From: a virus
Direction: 5' to 3' (one strand)
DNA: 54,788 bases
IMG/VR virus record: IMGVR_UViG_3300037493_002677
Location: 1 to 54,788 of that record
Position numbers and translations under genes: made by a program. The notes below the pieces were generated by a model. It was given only the letters and a program-made list of their open reading frames with translations, was not told the DNA's origin and did no database searches. Positions 7,375-37,292 of the stretch are shown here, piece after piece (within the stretch, counting starts at the first letter, position 1; every line of letters starts with the position of its first letter).

Positions 7375-7721
7375 TTGCTCGGCCCATGCAAAAATGCGAC
7401 CCACACCGTGTAAGCCAGCCAACCAACCACTCCGATCAGACCATACTTGCTGACCTCAAACAACATCTTCTTCCAGAACTCGGCTCGGGCAGCAACCATT
7501 GCCATCTCGTCTTCGTGATATTTGCGATGCCCTTCTGGATCACCGGAAGGGAAGGCATTCTTCGACAGGTCTTTGAGCAACTCTGCCCACTCAGCAGGTT
7601 CAGTCTCAATGTGTGCTGTGAGAGTCTCACCCATAGACTTCTGGGCAGCCTTCACATACTGTACGTCCGTATGTATGGTGTTGAGCAAGGTAAGTATGAT
7701 GTCTGGAGCAGATGATGACAT
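7371..7721 (-). CDS. Membrane-anchored lysis-cassette protein
   Basis: A 116-residue protein with a helical, charged N-terminal two-thirds and a single C-terminal hydrophobic helix (KYGLIGVVGWLAYTVWVAFL, about residues 92-111). It starts at ATG 7721 behind GAAAGGAAG and couples to the endolysin by a GTGA overlap. The topology resembles hemolysin-XhlA-like or antiholin/holin-accessory proteins. Spanin or second-holin roles are alternatives. Confidence 0.6.
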   Translation of the reverse strand: MSSSAPDIILTLLNTIHTDVQYVKAAQKSMGETLTAHIETEPAEWAELLKDLSKNAFPSGDPEGHRKYHEDEMAMVAARAEFWKKMLFEVSKYGLIGVVGWLAYTVWVAFLHGPSK

Positions 7722-7775
7722 TTTGATTCTTCCTTTCCGCTCTATGTTGAGCAGATGCGTTGTGCTATGAAACCT

Positions 7776-10337
7776 TTACTCAGTGTAGGCTTGGCTGGCG
7801 GCGTGGCCGGCCACTGCGGCCTCCACTACTGTTTGCATGGATGCGAGTTGCTGTTTCATCTGCTCAATGACGATCGCGGTGTCGTTGTCGTCCTTGTTCT
7901 TGGCCAACTCCGTCATCTGATGGAAACGGTTGTCAGCCTCGTTCCGCTGATTGGCCATCATCTCTTTGAACTGCGCCTGTTGGTCGTCCCGCTGCATCCG
8001 GAGTAGCTCCAACTGAGCTGCCTGTTCACGCTTCACCTGTTCGACCATCGGGGCAGCTTGAAGCTCCTGCATCTTCATGGCGTTGGTCATCTGAAGCTCT
8101 TGCTGCTTCAATTGCAGGGAGGCTTGGTCAGCTTGCGTCTTGCGCTGAATCTCGGCCATCGCGGCTTGGAACGTCTTCTCGATGGCAGGGTCAGACGGCG
8201 GTGGCGGGTTCTTGCTTTGTACCACTTGCTGAGCCTGTTGGAGGAGTGGTAGCAACTGCTGGTCCATGGCGCTGGTGGCTTGTTGGGCCTGCATCGCAGC
8301 CATCAGGGTAAGCTGGTCAGGTGGCAGTTCCGGGTGCTGAGCTTCCGCCACCATCTGGGCGGACTGAACCACATGTGCGTAGTCCAGTATGAAATGTTCC
8401 TGCACGTGCGCTAGGAGCCCGGCGAGTTGCTGGCCCAACCCATTCGATGCACCGATCATCGGATGCAGAATGAACATCAGGTGGGTCTTGATGTGGGCAA
8501 GGTGATCTTGAATGATGTTCGCCTTGAGCTGCGAGCCTTGGAGTACCGCCACATTCTCGGAAGCGGCGTCTGCCGTCACCGGATTCAGGGGCTTCGGCAA
8601 CAGCTCGTCCACATTGTCGACGCGCAGCAACTCCAGCATACGACGGCGGATGGCAATGAGGTTCCACGGTATCGCGGGGTTGCCGGTGTCGCCTGACGCC
8701 AACTGCATGACCGACTGCATCTGGGCGAAGCGCTGGGTCTCGCTGAAAATGTTGGGGTCGCTGACCGGCTCGATGTCGTCGCTGTCGAGGAAGTCCTCCG
8801 GTACCAAATCGAAGCGCCCAAGGTCCGCCAGCGCATGCTCGGGGTAGTCGGCAATTAACCGGCAGATGATCTTGAGTGCACGCCGCTGGGCTTCATGCAA
8901 ACGCGCGTGGATCGAACTGAAGACCTGCGAACCCTGCTCAATGAGTGCCAAGGCCGTCCCCACTGGCATGTTAGCGCCCGCGTCTGCGATTTTCTCTTCA
9001 GCAGTGGCCACCACCCCACGGGCTTGGCTAGTCAGCCAGTCCAAGAGCTGGAACAGCACCGCGCTGGGGGGATTGAACGGCAACGGCATCATGATCTTGC
9101 GGATGTCGTCTACGCCAGCGGGCGCTTCCATCTCCGTGACGCCGGTGACGTCGATGTTGATATTCTGCCCACTCGCACGTCCACCCTTGAGTTTGATGGC
9201 TGCGGGGGCGTTGTTGATGTGGGCAGAATCTAGCAGGGCTCGGAGGGAGCCCGTAAGGGAGGCAGCAAGGCCACCGATCAGGTGTGGGAATCCAATTCCG
9301 TATGCCCCGCGCCATGGGATGAACTTGTCTTCGACGAACCAATCCAGCTTGGTTTTCTCGTCGTCGGATTCTTTCCAGTTGCGATAGATGGCCGCGATCT
9401 TGCCAGTCGGCTCGTCAATGTGGATTACGTATGGGGCGCGTCCTTCGCCTTCCACATCGTAGAAGCAGGTGCACTCGTAGATGGTGCGGACGCCATCTTC
9501 ATTGTAGCCGCTGTCGTCCTTGCCCTCGATCTTGTCGTTGGCTTTTTGGGAGGCGGTCTCTTCCGGTGAAGCTTCATGCGTGGTGAAGATGTCTTTGTAG
9601 AAGCCAAATTTGATGTGCTCGTCGACCATCGCTTCGGTCAAGTCGCGCTCCTGCGTCACTCGGTTCGCGGTGTAGAAGCTATTGGCGGCGAACGGCAGGA
9701 ACACCTTGTCGATGGGCACGAACTCCATCCGCACCCGCTTGCCGTCGAACCAGTATTTCTCGTACTGACTGCCGCCGAGGGGCAACTGCGTGAACAGGAT
9801 TTCCTTCTCGCTACGATACTCCGGCATCTTCTCCGTGACGTAGAAGTTCAAGAAGTCGCGTTTCTTGCGGGCCTTCTCCAGCTTGGCTTCATCAGTCTTG
9901 CCGAATATCTTGGTCTTGACCGGGCCGTTGCTCGGGAACAACTCTTTGATGGCGCGGGCTGAGAAGTCTACACAGCCTTCAGCCAGCACCGGATGAACGA
10001 CTTTGGAGGCACCTTCGAAGCTCGCTCCACCGGGGGCGTCGTTGCCGAGACCTGTACGCCTTATGCCTTCTTCCTGCTGCTTGTCGCGCTCCTTGCGGGC
10101 TTCTTTGTCCTTCTCGATCAGTTCGAGGAGGTTAGTGGCGATGGTGTTGAGGTCGAAGTCCGGCAGGCTTTCCGCGAGGTTGGCGGAGAAGTCCGTGGAA
10201 GAATCGACGGCCTCGGAGGAGTCATCCTCAACAAGGGCGCTGCCATCAGCAAGCTCGGTCACGCCAGGGGGAGAGTCCATGGCGAGAGAGTTGAAAGCAG
10301 CAGACCGCTCAGCGGTCTCGTCGGAAATCTTAGGCAT
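7776..10337 (-). CDS. Portal protein
   Basis: An 853-residue protein. I use ATG 10337 (MPKISDETAERS) because it has AGGAG 11 nt upstream and overlaps the previous stop; a longer frame starts at 10439. Residues about 90-600 have the mixed alpha/beta layout of large podovirus portals (e.g. KTKIFGKTDEAKLEKARKKRDFLNF, the membrane-like LIGGLAASLTGSLRALLDSAH, and the QARGVVATAEEKIAD segment). The C-terminal 250 residues are a Gln/Met-rich coiled coil (QQATSAMDQQLLPLLQQAQQ) like the portal barrel. It forms the DNA entry ring. Length and its place after terminase support the call. Confidence 0.8.
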   Translation of the reverse strand: MPKISDETAERSAAFNSLAMDSPPGVTELADGSALVEDDSSEAVDSSTDFSANLAESLPDFDLNTIATNLLELIEKDKEARKERDKQQEEGIRRTGLGNDAPGGASFEGASKVVHPVLAEGCVDFSARAIKELFPSNGPVKTKIFGKTDEAKLEKARKKRDFLNFYVTEKMPEYRSEKEILFTQLPLGGSQYEKYWFDGKRVRMEFVPIDKVFLPFAANSFYTANRVTQERDLTEAMVDEHIKFGFYKDIFTTHEASPEETASQKANDKIEGKDDSGYNEDGVRTIYECTCFYDVEGEGRAPYVIHIDEPTGKIAAIYRNWKESDDEKTKLDWFVEDKFIPWRGAYGIGFPHLIGGLAASLTGSLRALLDSAHINNAPAAIKLKGGRASGQNINIDVTGVTEMEAPAGVDDIRKIMMPLPFNPPSAVLFQLLDWLTSQARGVVATAEEKIADAGANMPVGTALALIEQGSQVFSSIHARLHEAQRRALKIICRLIADYPEHALADLGRFDLVPEDFLDSDDIEPVSDPNIFSETQRFAQMQSVMQLASGDTGNPAIPWNLIAIRRRMLELLRVDNVDELLPKPLNPVTADAASENVAVLQGSQLKANIIQDHLAHIKTHLMFILHPMIGASNGLGQQLAGLLAHVQEHFILDYAHVVQSAQMVAEAQHPELPPDQLTLMAAMQAQQATSAMDQQLLPLLQQAQQVVQSKNPPPPSDPAIEKTFQAAMAEIQRKTQADQASLQLKQQELQMTNAMKMQELQAAPMVEQVKREQAAQLELLRMQRDDQQAQFKEMMANQRNEADNRFHQMTELAKNKDDNDTAIVIEQMKQQLASMQTVVEAAVAGHAASQAYTE

Positions 10338-19980: not shown

Positions 19981-20154
19981 ATGAAGTTCAAAGCAGGAGA
20001 GCTGGTAATGAAGGTCGGCGGTAGCTACCAGGCCGCTGGCATAATCGTCGCGGCCTTTACGACGACGCAAGGCGCCGAGCGCTACGTCTTCGAGTTTGAA
20101 AGTCCCGCAGGGATGTTGCATATTTTTGGGCCACAACAACTGGAGAAGAGATGA
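19981..20154 (+). CDS. Small conserved-type phage protein (SH3-like)
   Basis: A 57-residue protein starting MKFKAGELVMKVGGSYQ and containing RYVFEFES and HIFGPQQLEK. This KxGdxVxKxGG...Y...F layout recurs in small phage proteins of beta-barrel type. It begins directly after the primase stop and overlaps the next start by ATGA. Function unknown. Confidence 0.7.
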   Translation: MKFKAGELVMKVGGSYQAAGIIVAAFTTTQGAERYVFEFESPAGMLHIFGPQQLEKR

Positions 20155-20600
20155 GCTACTTTAACGACGTGAAGAAGTTCCACGATAAATTCAACTTGAG
20201 CTACGACGGGCCTCCGCGGGTACTGAGCGCCGAAGAGCAGGGATTCCGGTGGAGGTTTCTCAACGAGGAGCTTGCCGAAGTGAAGGAGGCTCTGTTGGAG
20301 GAGGACGTTGCACAGGTCGCCGGGGAGCTGGCGGACGTTATTTGGATTGCATGTGGGATGGCACACAGAATGGGGATCAATCTGGATTCGCACTGGTCAG
20401 CCATACGCGATGCGAACATGGCCAAGGTAAAGGCTTCCGCCGAGAATCCAGGAAAACGTGGTAATGCCATGGACATAGTTAAGCCGCCAGGTTGGCAGCG
20501 GCCGAACCACGACGAGATTCTGGAGCGTACTCGGCAGACGTATGAGGCCGACGAATACCAAACGCGTATGGCCATTGCCAAGGTCTTTGCGGACGACTAA
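20151..20600 (+). CDS. MazG-like nucleotide pyrophosphohydrolase
   Basis: A 149-residue all-alpha NTP-PPase. The metal-binding motifs are visible: NEELAEVKEA (E-x2-E pattern near residues 38-47) and GELADVIW (ExxD near residues 63-68), followed by a second helix pair. It resembles phosphoribosyl-ATP pyrophosphohydrolase/MazG folds that hydrolyse (d)NTPs to monophosphates. In a phage it may clean the nucleotide pool or lower ppGpp. Its C-terminal 45 residues are extra. Confidence 0.75.
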   Translation: MSYFNDVKKFHDKFNLSYDGPPRVLSAEEQGFRWRFLNEELAEVKEALLEEDVAQVAGELADVIWIACGMAHRMGINLDSHWSAIRDANMAKVKASAENPGKRGNAMDIVKPPGWQRPNHDEILERTRQTYEADEYQTRMAIAKVFADD

Positions 20601-32143: not shown

Positions 32144-32829
32144 GCACACCAAAACCCAAGATAACAGCCTGGTCATTCAGCCGCTGGAACGAGTACGAAA
32201 GCTGCCCACAGCGCACTCACTTCAAGGTCAACATGAAGATGAAGGAGCCGACCGGACCGGCCTTGGTGCGTGGCACTGAGCTGCACAAGCAGTGCGAGGA
32301 CTACCTGAAGAAGGGTGGGCGCATTCCCAAGGAACTCAAGCTGATCGGTGATGTGCTCAAGGACTACAAGAAGCGCGGGGCTATTGCAGAAGCCGAGTTC
32401 ACCTTTACCAAGGACTGGAAACCAACCTCTTGGTTTGGCTCAGACGCCTGGTGCCGGGTTAAGGCTGACGTGACCATCCCGCCGATCGCAGACAGCGACG
32501 AGCCCATTGTTGAAGTGCACGACTTCAAGAGCGGTAAGCTCAAGGACCAATATTCGGAGTACGGCCTGCAGTTAGACCTGTACGCCTTGGCTGGCCTGAT
32601 GGCTTATCCCACCGCCAAGCGTGCAAAGACGTCCATGGTATTCATCGATCACGGTAAGGTGGTGCCTGTGGAGACGGAGCACACGCAGAAGGACGTCAAG
32701 ACACTGACCAAAGCCTGGGAGCTGAGGGTCAAGCGCATGCTTAACGATACACAGTTCAAGCCAACGCCTGGTGATGGCTGCCGCTGGTGTACATTCAGCA
32801 AGGCCCGTGGCGGGATGTGTGCATTCTAA
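32140..32829 (+). CDS. PD-(D/E)XK nuclease (RecB/Cas4-like)
   Basis: A 229-residue nuclease. SFSRWNEYESCP at the start, RGTELHK (His49), the core Asp110...EVHDFKSGK (Asp128, Lys130) and QLDLYAL (Gln144) are the PDDEXK_1 order. Cys22 and Cys216, Cys219-like and Cys227 (CRWCTFSKARGGMC) could hold an iron-sulfur or zinc cluster as in Cas4/AddB. Overlaps the polymerase end (ATGA). Likely DNA recombination or host DNA breakdown. Confidence 0.8.
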   Translation: MSTPKPKITAWSFSRWNEYESCPQRTHFKVNMKMKEPTGPALVRGTELHKQCEDYLKKGGRIPKELKLIGDVLKDYKKRGAIAEAEFTFTKDWKPTSWFGSDAWCRVKADVTIPPIADSDEPIVEVHDFKSGKLKDQYSEYGLQLDLYALAGLMAYPTAKRAKTSMVFIDHGKVVPVETEHTQKDVKTLTKAWELRVKRMLNDTQFKPTPGDGCRWCTFSKARGGMCAF

Positions 32830-33158: not shown

Positions 33159-33651
33159 GTACGTCCTTTCTGCTGAGGCCAAGAAACGTAAAGCTGAGAC
33201 ATCAAAAGCTTGGAGAGCACGTAACTTGGAACATGCAAAAGCAATGTGCAATGCTTGGAAGGCTGCTAATCCATTAAAGAGCAAAGCAGCGGCGGCAAGA
33301 TGGTGCATCATGAACCCTGAAAAGGTTATACGCGCCAATGCTTCAAGAGACCCGGCAAAATCAAAAGTATTGGCTCAGAAATTTTATAGGAACAACCCAG
33401 GATATGCAGTTGCAGGTAGCAGGCTATACGCGCTAAAGAAAATACAAAGAACGCCTGCATGGGCGTCTAGAGCCGCCATTACGCAATTCTATAGAAAAGC
33501 GGCTGAGTTGACAAAAGCCACTGGCATTGTTCACCACGTTGATCATATTATTCCTTTACGTGGAAAGCTAGTATCTGGGTTGCATGTTGAAAACAATTTA
33601 CAAATTCTAGATGCTAAGTCCAATCTTACTAAAGGTAAGCGCTATGCCTGA
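33145..33651 (+). CDS. HNH homing endonuclease
   Basis: A 168-residue protein (start ATG 33145, MSVGKYVLSAEAKKRKAE). The N-terminal 90 residues are very basic with repeated RARN/AWKAANP blocks that look like DNA-contact repeats. The C-terminus has VHHVDHIIPL and GLHVENNLQIL, the HNH core (His-His-Asp-His and the trailing Asn). AT-rich compared with flanking genes. It overlaps the VRR-NUC end and the helicase start, so it slid in without breaking either. Confidence 0.8.
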   Translation: MSVGKYVLSAEAKKRKAETSKAWRARNLEHAKAMCNAWKAANPLKSKAAAARWCIMNPEKVIRANASRDPAKSKVLAQKFYRNNPGYAVAGSRLYALKKIQRTPAWASRAAITQFYRKAAELTKATGIVHHVDHIIPLRGKLVSGLHVENNLQILDAKSNLTKGKRYA

Positions 33652-35032
33652 GCCATGGAAGCCTTTAAAATTTCAAGAGCGGGGCGTACAGCATTTGGTT
33701 GAGCGTTCACATGCAGGGCTCTGTTTGAAACCCGGAATGCGCAAAACATCTATAACCTTGGCGGCGTTCAAGGTGCTGAAGAAAGTCAAAATGGTGGACA
33801 CTATGCTTGTCCTTGCGCCCCTTCGTGTGATTTACACCTCCTGGCCCCAAGAGGTGCGTAAGTGGGAGGAGTTCTCAGGGCTGTCCGTTGGCATCCTGCA
33901 TGGCAAGCATAAGGACAAAGTGCTGAGGGAGAAGCACGACGTTTACCTGGTGAACTACGAAGGCATCAAGTGGTTGCTAGAGCAGCTTGCTACCTTCAAG
34001 AAGTTCCCATTTGATATGCTGGTGGCCGACGAAAGTACTAAACTGAAGAATACCGCGTCTGCCCGTTTCAAGCTGATCAAACCGTGGCTGCGGTTCTTCA
34101 AGCGCCGCGTGATTCTGACCGGCTCCCCAATGGCTAACCGATTGCTAGATATTTTCGGGCAGGCCTACGTCATGGACAGCGGCGCAACGTTCGGGCCATA
34201 CATCACCAAGTTCAGGGAGGAGTTGTTCCTTCCGCTTGACGACTATGGTAACTGGGTACCTAAGCACGGCACCGAGGCGATTATACATGCCAGGCTCGCG
34301 CCTCGTGTATACTACGCCCACAGTGAAGACTGGCTCAACTTGCCACCACTAATTGAGAAGGACATTGAAATTGAGCTCCCACCTAAGGCCATGGCTGCTT
34401 ACAGGCAGATGGAGAATGCTCTCCGTCTGGATTTCGAAGCCGGGCGCGTAGTAGCCGCAAACACAGGCGTGGCTACTATGAAATGTAGGCAAATTGCTAA
34501 TGGCGGCTGTTATCTAGACGGTATGAACAAGACGTGGGAACATATTCATGAGGCCAAGGTGGAGGCAGTCGTTGATCTGGTGGAGGAGCTACAGGGCGCA
34601 CCAGCGCTGATTACCTATGAATTCCTGCACGACCTTGACCGCTTGAAAAAGGCGTTGGGAAAAGATACCCCACACATCGGTAAAGGTGGCGTAGCCCCAA
34701 ATCAAATGACCAAGCTCATAGCTGCTTGGAACCGAGGTGAGATTCCATACATTATCGTCAACGAGCAGTCAATGTCGCACGGAGTTGACGGGTTACAGGA
34801 AGCCGGGCGGGCAGTGATCTGGCACTCGCTCACGTACAACTTCGAGAACTACGATCAGCTGATCCGGCGTCTCAGGCGGTCAGGTCAACGTGAACGCGTG
34901 CTGGTGGCCCACATTATTGCCAAGGATACTATTGACTCCGTGCTGCTAGCTACATTGCGGCGCAAGGACAAGACACAAGGAAATTTGTTTAGCGCTTTGA
35001 AGGATTACTGGGTTACGAATGCTAATCGATAG
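33644..35032 (+). CDS. SNF2/DEAD-type helicase
   Basis: A 462-residue superfamily 2 helicase. The Walker A region reads PGMRKTSITL (Arg replaces the usual Gly before Lys-Thr), motif II is VADES, then GSPMANRLLDIFGQ, SHGVDGLQEAG (motif V) and QLIRRLRRSGQ (motif VI). Phage versions accompany VRR-NUC nucleases and are used in recombination or remodelling. Start ATG 33644. Confidence 0.85.
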   Translation: MPEPWKPLKFQERGVQHLVERSHAGLCLKPGMRKTSITLAAFKVLKKVKMVDTMLVLAPLRVIYTSWPQEVRKWEEFSGLSVGILHGKHKDKVLREKHDVYLVNYEGIKWLLEQLATFKKFPFDMLVADESTKLKNTASARFKLIKPWLRFFKRRVILTGSPMANRLLDIFGQAYVMDSGATFGPYITKFREELFLPLDDYGNWVPKHGTEAIIHARLAPRVYYAHSEDWLNLPPLIEKDIEIELPPKAMAAYRQMENALRLDFEAGRVVAANTGVATMKCRQIANGGCYLDGMNKTWEHIHEAKVEAVVDLVEELQGAPALITYEFLHDLDRLKKALGKDTPHIGKGGVAPNQMTKLIAAWNRGEIPYIIVNEQSMSHGVDGLQEAGRAVIWHSLTYNFENYDQLIRRLRRSGQRERVLVAHIIAKDTIDSVLLATLRRKDKTQGNLFSALKDYWVTNANR

Positions 35033-35710: not shown

Positions 35711-36040
35711 ATGGCTGACGTCGACCTGACAAACATCAACACGGTCGATCTGCTCCAGGAGCTCACCCGCAGGGGTGGGCATCTGGAGGCTTTGGCCGAG
35801 GCTGGTTTGCTTTGCGCCAAGAAGGCCGAGGACTACAATGCTGGTACCATATCGAGGGACAGCTACTTCCCCTTCGGCCTGCAGTCCTACGCACAGATGA
35901 TCCATACGAAGTCGCAGCGGCTCATCTCGCTTTGTGGCAAAGACAGCTCCGAGAATTTCGAGTCGGCCCGTGACACCTGCTTGGACTTGGTTAATTACGC
36001 AGGATTCTGTGCAGACTGGCTAAAGAGGACTAAAAAATGA
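35711..36040 (+). CDS. Nucleotide modification associated protein (DUF1599/Nmad1)
   Basis: A 109-residue helical protein from ATG 35711. LCAKKAEDYN (about residue 39), FGLQSYAQMIHTKSQRLISL and ARDTCLDLVNYAGFCADWL fit DUF1599, also called Nmad1. This family sits beside thymidylate-synthase-fold genes in phages with altered bases. Here the ThyA-fold gene follows with a 4-base overlap. Confidence 0.7.
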   Translation: MADVDLTNINTVDLLQELTRRGGHLEALAEAGLLCAKKAEDYNAGTISRDSYFPFGLQSYAQMIHTKSQRLISLCGKDSSENFESARDTCLDLVNYAGFCADWLKRTKK

Positions 36041-36861
36041 AAGCATGGCAACGACTGCTGGAGACGGTTTCAGAGCTTGGTGAAATTCGTGGCGACCGAA
36101 CCGGTGTTGGCACGCAAAGCATCTTCGGGCTCAGCGCTGAGTTCGTTAATACTCCAGGGTTGTTTCCAGCTGTAACTACCAAGCGCCTTGCGGTGAAGCA
36201 GTGCTTTGCCGAGATGGCGCTGTTCATCCAGGGCAAGCACACACTGGCTGACTTCCACGCACTCGGCTGTACCATTTGGGACGGCAATGGCACGGCACCA
36301 GGGTGGCAACCGTGGGCAGACGGCGACCTTGGTCGGATCTATGGGGTGCAGTGGCGAGATTGGCGTACCGGAATTTCCAGCAGTCAAACGGGCACAGACC
36401 AGCTCTACCTGTTTGTTGAGCGTTTGAAGAAGGACCCCAATTCACGGCGCCACATTATGACCACCTGGAATCCTGGAGAACTGGCGCATATGTGCCTCCC
36501 TCCTTGTCACATCATGCTGCAAGCTTACGTCTCAGGCCAGCACCTTGACTTCCTAGTCTATATGCGCTCAGTTGACCTCGTTCTTGGCCTTCCGTTTGAC
36601 GTGGCAGGCTATGCTCTGCTTCAGCATTTGGTCGCAAAGGAGGTCAATTTGAAGCCGCGGCGGCTGCTGTTCAACTTCGGCGACGCACACATCTACCGCA
36701 ACCATTCGAAGGCCGTGGCGACGATCCTAGCGCGTCTGCCGAAGGCTCCGCCACGCCTGCTGCTTGCACCGGAAGCAAGGCTTTTTGACTTCCACCCGGA
36801 CATGGCGACGCTGGAGGGCTACGACGCACACGAAGCAGTCAAGGCGGAGCTGAATGTATGA
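36037..36861 (+). CDS. ThyA-fold enzyme, predicted dCMP (hydroxy)methylase
   Basis: A 274-residue thymidylate-synthase-fold protein. Catalytic Cys157 in LPPCH, Arg177-Ser178 with Asp180 in MRSVD, and His218/Tyr220 in DAHIYRNH are kept. The substrate-choosing Asn of ThyA (LPFN) is Asp188 here (LPFD). In T4 dCMP hydroxymethylase the matching residue is Asp, and Asn-to-Asp in thymidylate synthase shifts preference to dCMP. With Nmad1 before and dCMP deaminase after, 5-methyl- or 5-hydroxymethyl-dCMP is predicted. If the Asp is only variant, ordinary dTMP synthesis is the alternative. Confidence 0.75.
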   Translation: MKAWQRLLETVSELGEIRGDRTGVGTQSIFGLSAEFVNTPGLFPAVTTKRLAVKQCFAEMALFIQGKHTLADFHALGCTIWDGNGTAPGWQPWADGDLGRIYGVQWRDWRTGISSSQTGTDQLYLFVERLKKDPNSRRHIMTTWNPGELAHMCLPPCHIMLQAYVSGQHLDFLVYMRSVDLVLGLPFDVAGYALLQHLVAKEVNLKPRRLLFNFGDAHIYRNHSKAVATILARLPKAPPRLLLAPEARLFDFHPDMATLEGYDAHEAVKAELNV

Positions 36862-37292
36862 GACCGTGCAAGAACTTGTACTTTATGCGTCTCGCCGACC
36901 TGGCCAGTACCCGAGCGACATGCTTAAAACGCGCCGTGGGCTGCGTCTTGGTGGACCAAAGGGGCCACGTACTGAGCATGGGGTACAACGGGGTGTCGTC
37001 TGGAATGCCGCATTGCAACGAGGAAAACCCTTGTCACAATTGGGACCTTCCCCCTGGTCAAGATTCTTGTGAGGCCGTGCACGCGGAGCAGAATGCCCTC
37101 CTCCAATGCCGAGACCCTTGGAGCATAGACACCGCTTACGTCACACTTAGCCCCTGCAAGGCGTGCCTCAAGCTCTTGATGAACACCTCTTGCCAGCGCA
37201 TTGTATTTCGCGCTGAGCACTCGGATCCTTGGCCCAAAGCACAATGGGAAAAAATGGGTAGGATCTGGGTACACCTTGACGATGTTCTATGA
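36858..37292 (+). CDS. dCMP deaminase
   Basis: A 144-residue zinc deaminase: HAE (His75, Glu77) and PCKAC (Cys100, Cys103) bind the catalytic zinc; extra Cys and His in MPHCNEENPCHNWD fit the second zinc site of allosteric dCMP deaminases. It turns dCMP to dUMP, so it competes or balances with the neighbouring dCMP-acting enzyme. Overlaps it by ATGA. Confidence 0.85.
   Translation: MRPCKNLYFMRLADLASTRATCLKRAVGCVLVDQRGHVLSMGYNGVSSGMPHCNEENPCHNWDLPPGQDSCEAVHAEQNALLQCRDPWSIDTAYVTLSPCKACLKLLMNTSCQRIVFRAEHSDPWPKAQWEKMGRIWVHLDDVL

Follow-up and report, generated by a model that had tools for sequence, protein, structure and literature searches.

A thymidylate synthase-family gene in an IMG/VR virus record predicted to encode a dCMP C5-methylase

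Thymidylate synthase (TS) reads its base through an Asn, residue 177 of the E. coli enzyme (EcTS), and a substitution at this position alone is reported to give TS dCMP methylase activity (Liu & Santi 1992, as cited in PMC8670742). Which substrate and which product should then be expected of a TS-family gene that naturally carries Asp there, and would that product enter phage DNA? We addressed these questions for a gene in a virus sequence of 54,788 nucleotides (IMG/VR record IMGVR_UViG_3300037493_002677; "the window" below is this whole stretch). The gene, its key residues, and its immediate neighbors are as follows:

35711–36040, + strand: DUF1599/Nmad1 protein, 109 aa, overlapping the TS start through ATGA (Pfam, relatives)
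36037–36861, + strand: TS-family enzyme, 274 aa, predicted dCMP C5-methylase (ORF, Pfam, residues, AF2 model)
36496–36510, + strand: Leu154-Pro-Pro-Cys157-His158, containing the nucleophile Cys, preceded at −3 by Leu as in TS and followed at +1 by His (alignment)
36598–36600, + strand: codon of Asp188, the putative cytosine-reading residue (EcTS N177; T4 dCMP hydroxymethylase, dCH, Asp179) (alignment)
36829–36858, + strand: TS-like C-terminal tail HEAVKAELNV (confident model, aligning with that of E. coli TS)
36858–37292, + strand: dCMP-deaminase family protein with HAE and PCxxC zinc motifs, overlapping the TS stop through ATGA (Pfam, 8.2e-20)

An aspartate at the base-reading position

The protein encoded at 36037–36861 matched Pfam Thymidylat_synt (E = 1.5e-78) as well as phrog_160, and PDB sequence searches returned no matches other than TS. 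Its AF2 model (pLDDT 95.4) had E. coli TS as closest structures, and aligned with 4gev over residues 1–274, tail included, with a Z score of 38.4, an rmsd of 1.2 Å, and 39% identity. The LPFD motif begins at residue 185, which places its Asp at residue 188, aligned with E. coli N177, as a sequence-only reading of this DNA had proposed. The same reading held that the other catalytic residues are intact, and all equivalents of the EcTS set are indeed present: E59, W81, Y102, R137/R138, C157, R177, S178, D180, H218, and Y220, corresponding in order to EcTS E58, W80, Y94, R126/R127, C146, R166, S167, D169, H207, and Y209. The hydride-transfer environment of EcTS (W80, L143, D169, and the C-terminal tail) is likewise kept, as Trp81, Leu154, Asp180, and the tail. 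Beyond Asp188, the clade of the window enzyme has changes of its own, for example Met176 and Cys153. A Trp83 to Asn change was dropped as a hallmark owing to an ambiguous alignment around an insertion there, and Arg-Ile-Tyr was rejected as an Asp-type-specific string because Bacteroides phage BF698P3 combines it with an Asn-type TS. A CMP (ribonucleotide) hydroxymethylase of the MilA/BcmA kind, in which two residues of the sugar/phosphate pocket, Ser and Arg, are exchanged for Ala and Lys (PMC5175136), was also rejected: Ser178 and Arg137/Arg138 are kept in the window enzyme, so its substrate should be a deoxynucleotide.

Two scans blind to residue 188 recovered ~147 TS homologues, and 141 of these, our Asn-type control, have the Asn found at the EcTS 177 position in dUMP-using ThyA. 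Asp was seen only in the window enzyme and its four closest relatives (L001–L004). The nearest relatives, 47–55% identical by tblastn, also have Asp and form a phage clade, and a scan with the pattern RSxDxxLGxPFD matched 53 IMG/VR stretches. Leu154, a position outside the search pattern, was invariant across 29 aligned Asp-type proteins. A 75-sequence tree placed the window enzyme within 19 Asp-type phage sequences (SH-aLRT 86), themselves nested among 31 that form a starred group. On this tree, the distribution of Asp and Asn required four changes, of which strong branches enforce two or more. Judging from its recurrence in the nearest relatives and across the phage clade, Asp188 is real and inherited and no sequencing error.

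Could the enzyme nevertheless be a dUMP thymidylate synthase, or a dual enzyme, in which Asp is tolerated? Its 39% identity to and superposition on E. coli TS would fit such an activity, and the adjacent deaminase would be able to make dUMP. However, Asn is invariant in the 141 Asn-type homologues and is the published specificity determinant, and Asp recurs in the phage clade, also in relatives retrieved without using it, all of which makes this reading very unlikely. Taken together, Asp at the EcTS 177 position, its conservation in the phage clade, and a surrounding cassette of DUF1599, MazG-like, and deaminase genes support cytosine specificity. We therefore consider dCMP as a well-supported substrate, on which the window enzyme very probably acts.

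Methylation or hydroxymethylation of dCMP

The sequence-only reading had likened the enzyme to T4 dCMP hydroxymethylase (gp42). Both belong to the TS fold family and share the Cys nucleophile, the base-reading Asp, and an MRSxD motif, although T4 reads GFRND in place of LPFD, and MRSxD is not diagnostic since the Asp-type proteins L001 and L200 read QRSCD. In T4 gp42, hydroxymethylation depends on Asp145, a water-activating residue at −3 relative to the catalytic Cys, and the D145N change abolishes the reaction; further features are a Ser94-x-Tyr96 motif and the lack of the C-terminal tail that seals the folate site in TS (PMC6400193). None of this signature is found in the window enzyme, which instead has Leu154 at −3, Arg100-Ile101-Tyr102, and a full TS-like tail; the analogy to T4 dCH is thus unsupported.

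These positions were examined in TS-family enzymes encoded near NodU-type carbamoyltransferases, which are expected to be hydroxymethylases because carbamoylated hydroxymethylcytosine requires a hydroxymethyl group. All five enzymes in this control set, from Xanthomonas phage Xp15, Acinetobacter phages Effie and HHU4, and Bacteroides phage BF503P2 (two copies), had Asp at −3, Thr at +1, and Ser-Asn-Tyr, as does T4 gp42. Relatives of phage Xp12 (AXL1, DLP4, and AAT-1) encode a TS with the same base-reading Asp but Asn at −3 and Pro at +1. T4 D145N has likewise lost hydroxymethylation. The two groups predicted to be non-hydroxymethylating, the Xp12 relatives and the group of the window enzyme, thus both lack an acidic −3 residue. 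In the cases checked, the combination of an Asp base reader with the identity of the −3 residue thus appears to separate methylating from hydroxymethylating TS. Carbamoyltransferases themselves did not discriminate, with none in 49 records with an Asp-type TS carrying Leu at −3 ("Leu-type") or in 27 hydroxymethylase-type records. Separately, the occurrence of carbamoyltransferases near TS with the hydroxymethylase signature in L358 (Xanthomonas phage Xp15), L359, L360, and L361 predicts 5-carbamoyloxymethylcytosine in these cultured phages.

The residue combination of the window enzyme is that of the engineered dCMP methylase TS N229D. Like L. casei TS N229D and E. coli TS N177D, it replaces Asn by Asp while retaining the other catalytic residues and the tail; unlike these laboratory mutants, its Asp is natural, fixed in the clade, and accompanied by further clade-specific changes. 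A dCMP hydroxymethylase that would provide DNA with 5-hydroxymethylcytosine (5hmC) or a derivative is accordingly improbable. It would account for the Asp and MRSxD common to both enzymes, for the DUF1599 genes that also accompany hydroxymethylases, and for Stenotrophomonas phage AXL3 and ctUtU524, which combine a similar polymerase/helicase module with an enzyme bearing Asp at −3 and Thr at +1. Against it stand the missing signature residues and tail, the effect of D145N in T4 (PMC6400193), and the distance to T4 dCH, which is 24% identical and lies far from the window enzyme in the tree. The signature residues led us to set aside a T4-style enzyme as the preferred reading, and methyl rather than hydroxymethyl is the likely product, an assignment that is fairly well supported.

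In the reaction we propose, the ThyA fold is ordinary except that Asp188 takes the place of the uracil-reading Asn, so that the enzyme would bind dCMP and protonate its N3. Cys157 would attack C6, methylene-THF would be transferred to C5, and the exocyclic methylene would be reduced by the THF hydride to yield 5-methyl-dCMP and dihydrofolate. Reduction rather than hydration to 5-hydroxymethyl-dCMP is expected from the retention of a TS-like setting for hydride transfer (Leu154, Trp81, Asp180, and the closing C-terminal tail).

Gene neighborhood and fate of the product

The placement of the gene between DUF1599/Nmad1 and dCMP deaminase genes was confirmed on both sides. The DUF1599 call had a Pfam E-value of 7.7e-4, below the gathering score, and homology was confirmed through relatives. 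Given the ATGA overlaps, the three genes are probably translationally coupled, and the downstream gene (36858–37292) is a candidate 5-methyl-dCMP/dCMP deaminase. Other features of the window relevant to nucleotide supply and replication are:

20151–20600, + strand: nucleotide pyrophosphohydrolase resembling MazG/PRA-PH, a candidate dCTPase that would provide dCMP (homology)
30302–32143, + strand: family A DNA polymerase, in a replication module common to AXL3 and PW916
32140–32829, + strand: PD-(D/E)XK (Cas4/RecB-like) nuclease, same module
33611–35032, + strand: SNF2-type helicase, same module

This polymerase, nuclease, and helicase module lies upstream of the TS gene. The window also encodes a TROVE/Ro60-like protein with a vWA domain (27903–29297, +), unusual for a phage replication region. 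In relatives such as L003, L201, and L200, a MazG-like gene is located between the TS and deaminase genes. In the near relative L200, a protein with a PF18909 dATP/dGTP diphosphohydrolase N-terminal domain (7619–7948, −) directly precedes TS, in the place taken by DUF1599 in the window.

DUF1599 genes within 1.5 kb and on the same strand as TS were found at 79/120 hydroxymethylase-type loci, at 4/52 Leu-type loci (plus the window), and at none of 143 Asn-type loci, counts that are not phylogenetically independent and reflect fewer independent events, the 120 hydroxymethylase loci forming four clusters at 50% identity. DUF1599 thus occurred beside Asp-type TS in three distinct TS groups. Most Leu-type loci, however, do not have it directly upstream, which counts against the methylase reading. 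In the T4-dCH-like IMG/VR loci L205–L324, it mostly lies directly upstream of the dCMP hydroxymethylase, a strong functional link for which we found no description. A dCMP deaminase gene was present within 3 kb of TS at 32/56 Asp-type vs 7/141 Asn-type loci, these sets including related viruses. A fold search with the DUF1599 AF2 model (pLDDT 90.8) gave no significant match: DCTPP1, dCTPase, and PRA-PH were among the matches, with Foldseek E > 0.9 and Z ~7, within the helical background.

Deamination of 5-methyl-dCMP yields dTMP, while deamination of 5-hydroxymethyl-dCMP does not. ThyX or another second dTMP synthase was detected in none of the 28 Leu-type records of ≥25 kb, compared to 8 of 27 hydroxymethylase-type records (Fisher p = 0.002, uncorrected for relatedness), in line with dTMP being provided through 5-methyl-dCMP deamination. 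One Leu-type record (L162, IMGVR_UViG_3300024346_000306) was alone in carrying a second full TS-family gene, a T4-like hydroxymethylase; this virus may produce a pair of modified cytosines, or employ them at separate steps. A reductive methylase also requires dihydrofolate reductase (DHFR), which a hydroxymethylase does not. No DHFR is encoded in the window; a DHFR gene directly adjoins a Leu-type Asp TS in two records (G012 and G030) and is close by in Bosaviruses. The loci in these two records (L160 and L181) have an E. coli-like Asp-type TS followed by DHFR, without a nearby dCMP deaminase. Likewise, no kinase was found in the window in a search with four phage kinases, while AXL3, Xp15, and a marine phage record each have one near TS. 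Both absences count against the methylase reading.

These observations bear on a further reading, in which the enzyme methylates dCMP for thymidylate supply only, 5-methyl-dCMP being deaminated to dTMP and DNA cytosine remaining ordinary. The overlapping deaminase directly downstream and the lack of ThyX or another dTMP synthase in the Leu-type records are both consistent with this, and a new thymidylate route is reported for Xp12-infected cells (Kuo 1982). In addition, the window still shows avoidance of six-base palindromes, whereas complete cytosine replacement predicts otherwise; four-base palindromes were weakly avoided in both the window clade and hydroxymethylase-type loci, in a comparison whose Asn-type control may consist largely of a few virus groups. 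On the other hand, thymidylate could be supplied by this deaminase together with an ordinary TS, without the Asp change, and DUF1599 and MazG-like proteins track Asp-type rather than Asn-type TS. The pairing of DUF1599 with Asp-type TS, and with none of the 143 Asn-type TS, favors DNA modification over plain thymidylate supply. Asp at position 177 is also tied to modified DNA in MetaGPA, where contigs with modified cytosine mostly have this residue, and position 147 is, besides 177, the top site differing between modified and unmodified contigs (PMC8670742). The window enzyme shares Asp177 with these phage TS, but they come from contigs chosen by modification and also differ at position 147, where the window enzyme keeps His158; this counts against the methylase reading favored below.

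On balance, we regard a role confined to thymidylate supply as unlikely, and moderately favor a dCMP C5-methylase whose product is used as 5-methylcytosine (5mC) in DNA and in part deaminated to dTMP. Of the two bases anticipated by the sequence-only reading, 5mC is thus preferred and 5hmC disfavored, with entry of the product into DNA as 5mC being somewhat probable. In the favored methylase reading, the cassette most likely operates as in phage Xp12: dCTP would be converted to dCMP by the MazG-like pyrophosphohydrolase, perhaps with DUF1599, and then methylated by the window enzyme. Kinases would phosphorylate 5-methyl-dCMP to 5-methyl-dCTP, the form used by the phage polymerase, while part of the methylated pool would be turned into thymidine nucleotide by the neighboring deaminase.

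Relation to known phage systems

The closest functional parallel may be found in Xp12, for which complete replacement of cytosine by 5mC is documented (5mC by LC-MS in PMC7653180). A dCMP methyltransferase is made in Xp12-infected cells (PMC8543423), while the genetic mechanism of Xp12-type modification was stated to be unknown in the AXL1 paper (PMC9206674). Judged through its relatives, the Xp12/Bosavirus TS (AXL1 gp63, DLP4, AAT-1) resembles the window enzyme in its Asp at the EcTS 177 position, in its association with MazG and DUF1599 domains and a dCMP deaminase, in its location near a DNA polymerase and an SNF2-like helicase, and in its predicted 5-methyl-dCMP product. The AXL1, DLP4, and AAT-1 cassette reads PPH(MazG+DUF1599)-TS(Asp)-dCD-DHFR, except that in AAT-1 TS and dCD are separated by one more ORF. 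Unlike the window, where MazG lies 15 kb away and DHFR is missing, Bosaviruses have MazG fused to DUF1599 and encode DHFR, and their TS is only 30% identical to the window enzyme, with Asn at −3 and Pro at +1 instead of Leu and His. By sequence, the Xp12/Bosavirus TS falls outside the window clade, with a long AXL1 branch whose placement is unsure. The best reading by analogy is thus that the window enzyme would work like the Xp12 dCMP methylase, while belonging to neither Xp12's nor T4's sequence group.

A further phage for comparison is AXL3 (gp27–gp30), in which PolA, a Cas4-like nuclease, and a helicase are followed by MazG, an Asp-bearing TS, and a dCMP deaminase, all in one direction. 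AXL3 gp28 (L325) is annotated as thymidylate synthase but displays the hydroxymethylase Asp at −3 and Thr at +1, and AXL3 also encodes ThyX. These residues, the presence of ThyX, and the resistance of AXL3 DNA to 35 of 37 restriction enzymes (PMC7504290) predict that its DNA contains 5hmC or a derivative. Another candidate methylase cassette was observed in L357 (uncultured phage MedDCM-OCT-S28-C10), a marine Autographiviridae member, where an NTP-PPase and a dTMP-kinase-like gene accompany an Asp-type TS (Leu at −3, Tyr at +1) and a dCMP deaminase.

Asp-type TS in phages with modified cytosine (MetaGPA) and dCMP methylation (Xp12) were already known; the present analysis adds the assignment of the TS-like Asp group to the methylase side, a check of the −3 rule near carbamoyltransferases, and the DUF1599 association. 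As a broader and still tentative proposal, a widespread third phage group of cytosine-type TS, with Asp as base reader but TS-like in all else, might represent natural dCMP methylases. Along with an overlapping deaminase, these could feed a single precursor into 5-methyl-dCTP as well as dTTP, with no need for a dUMP-based TS, and DUF1599 might be a general partner of cytosine-modifying TS, whether methylating or hydroxymethylating. If the −3 rule holds, phages with 5mC and those with 5hmC would be predictable by sequence alone, a candidate gene would be named for Xp12-type modification, and DUF1599 would gain a firm functional context.
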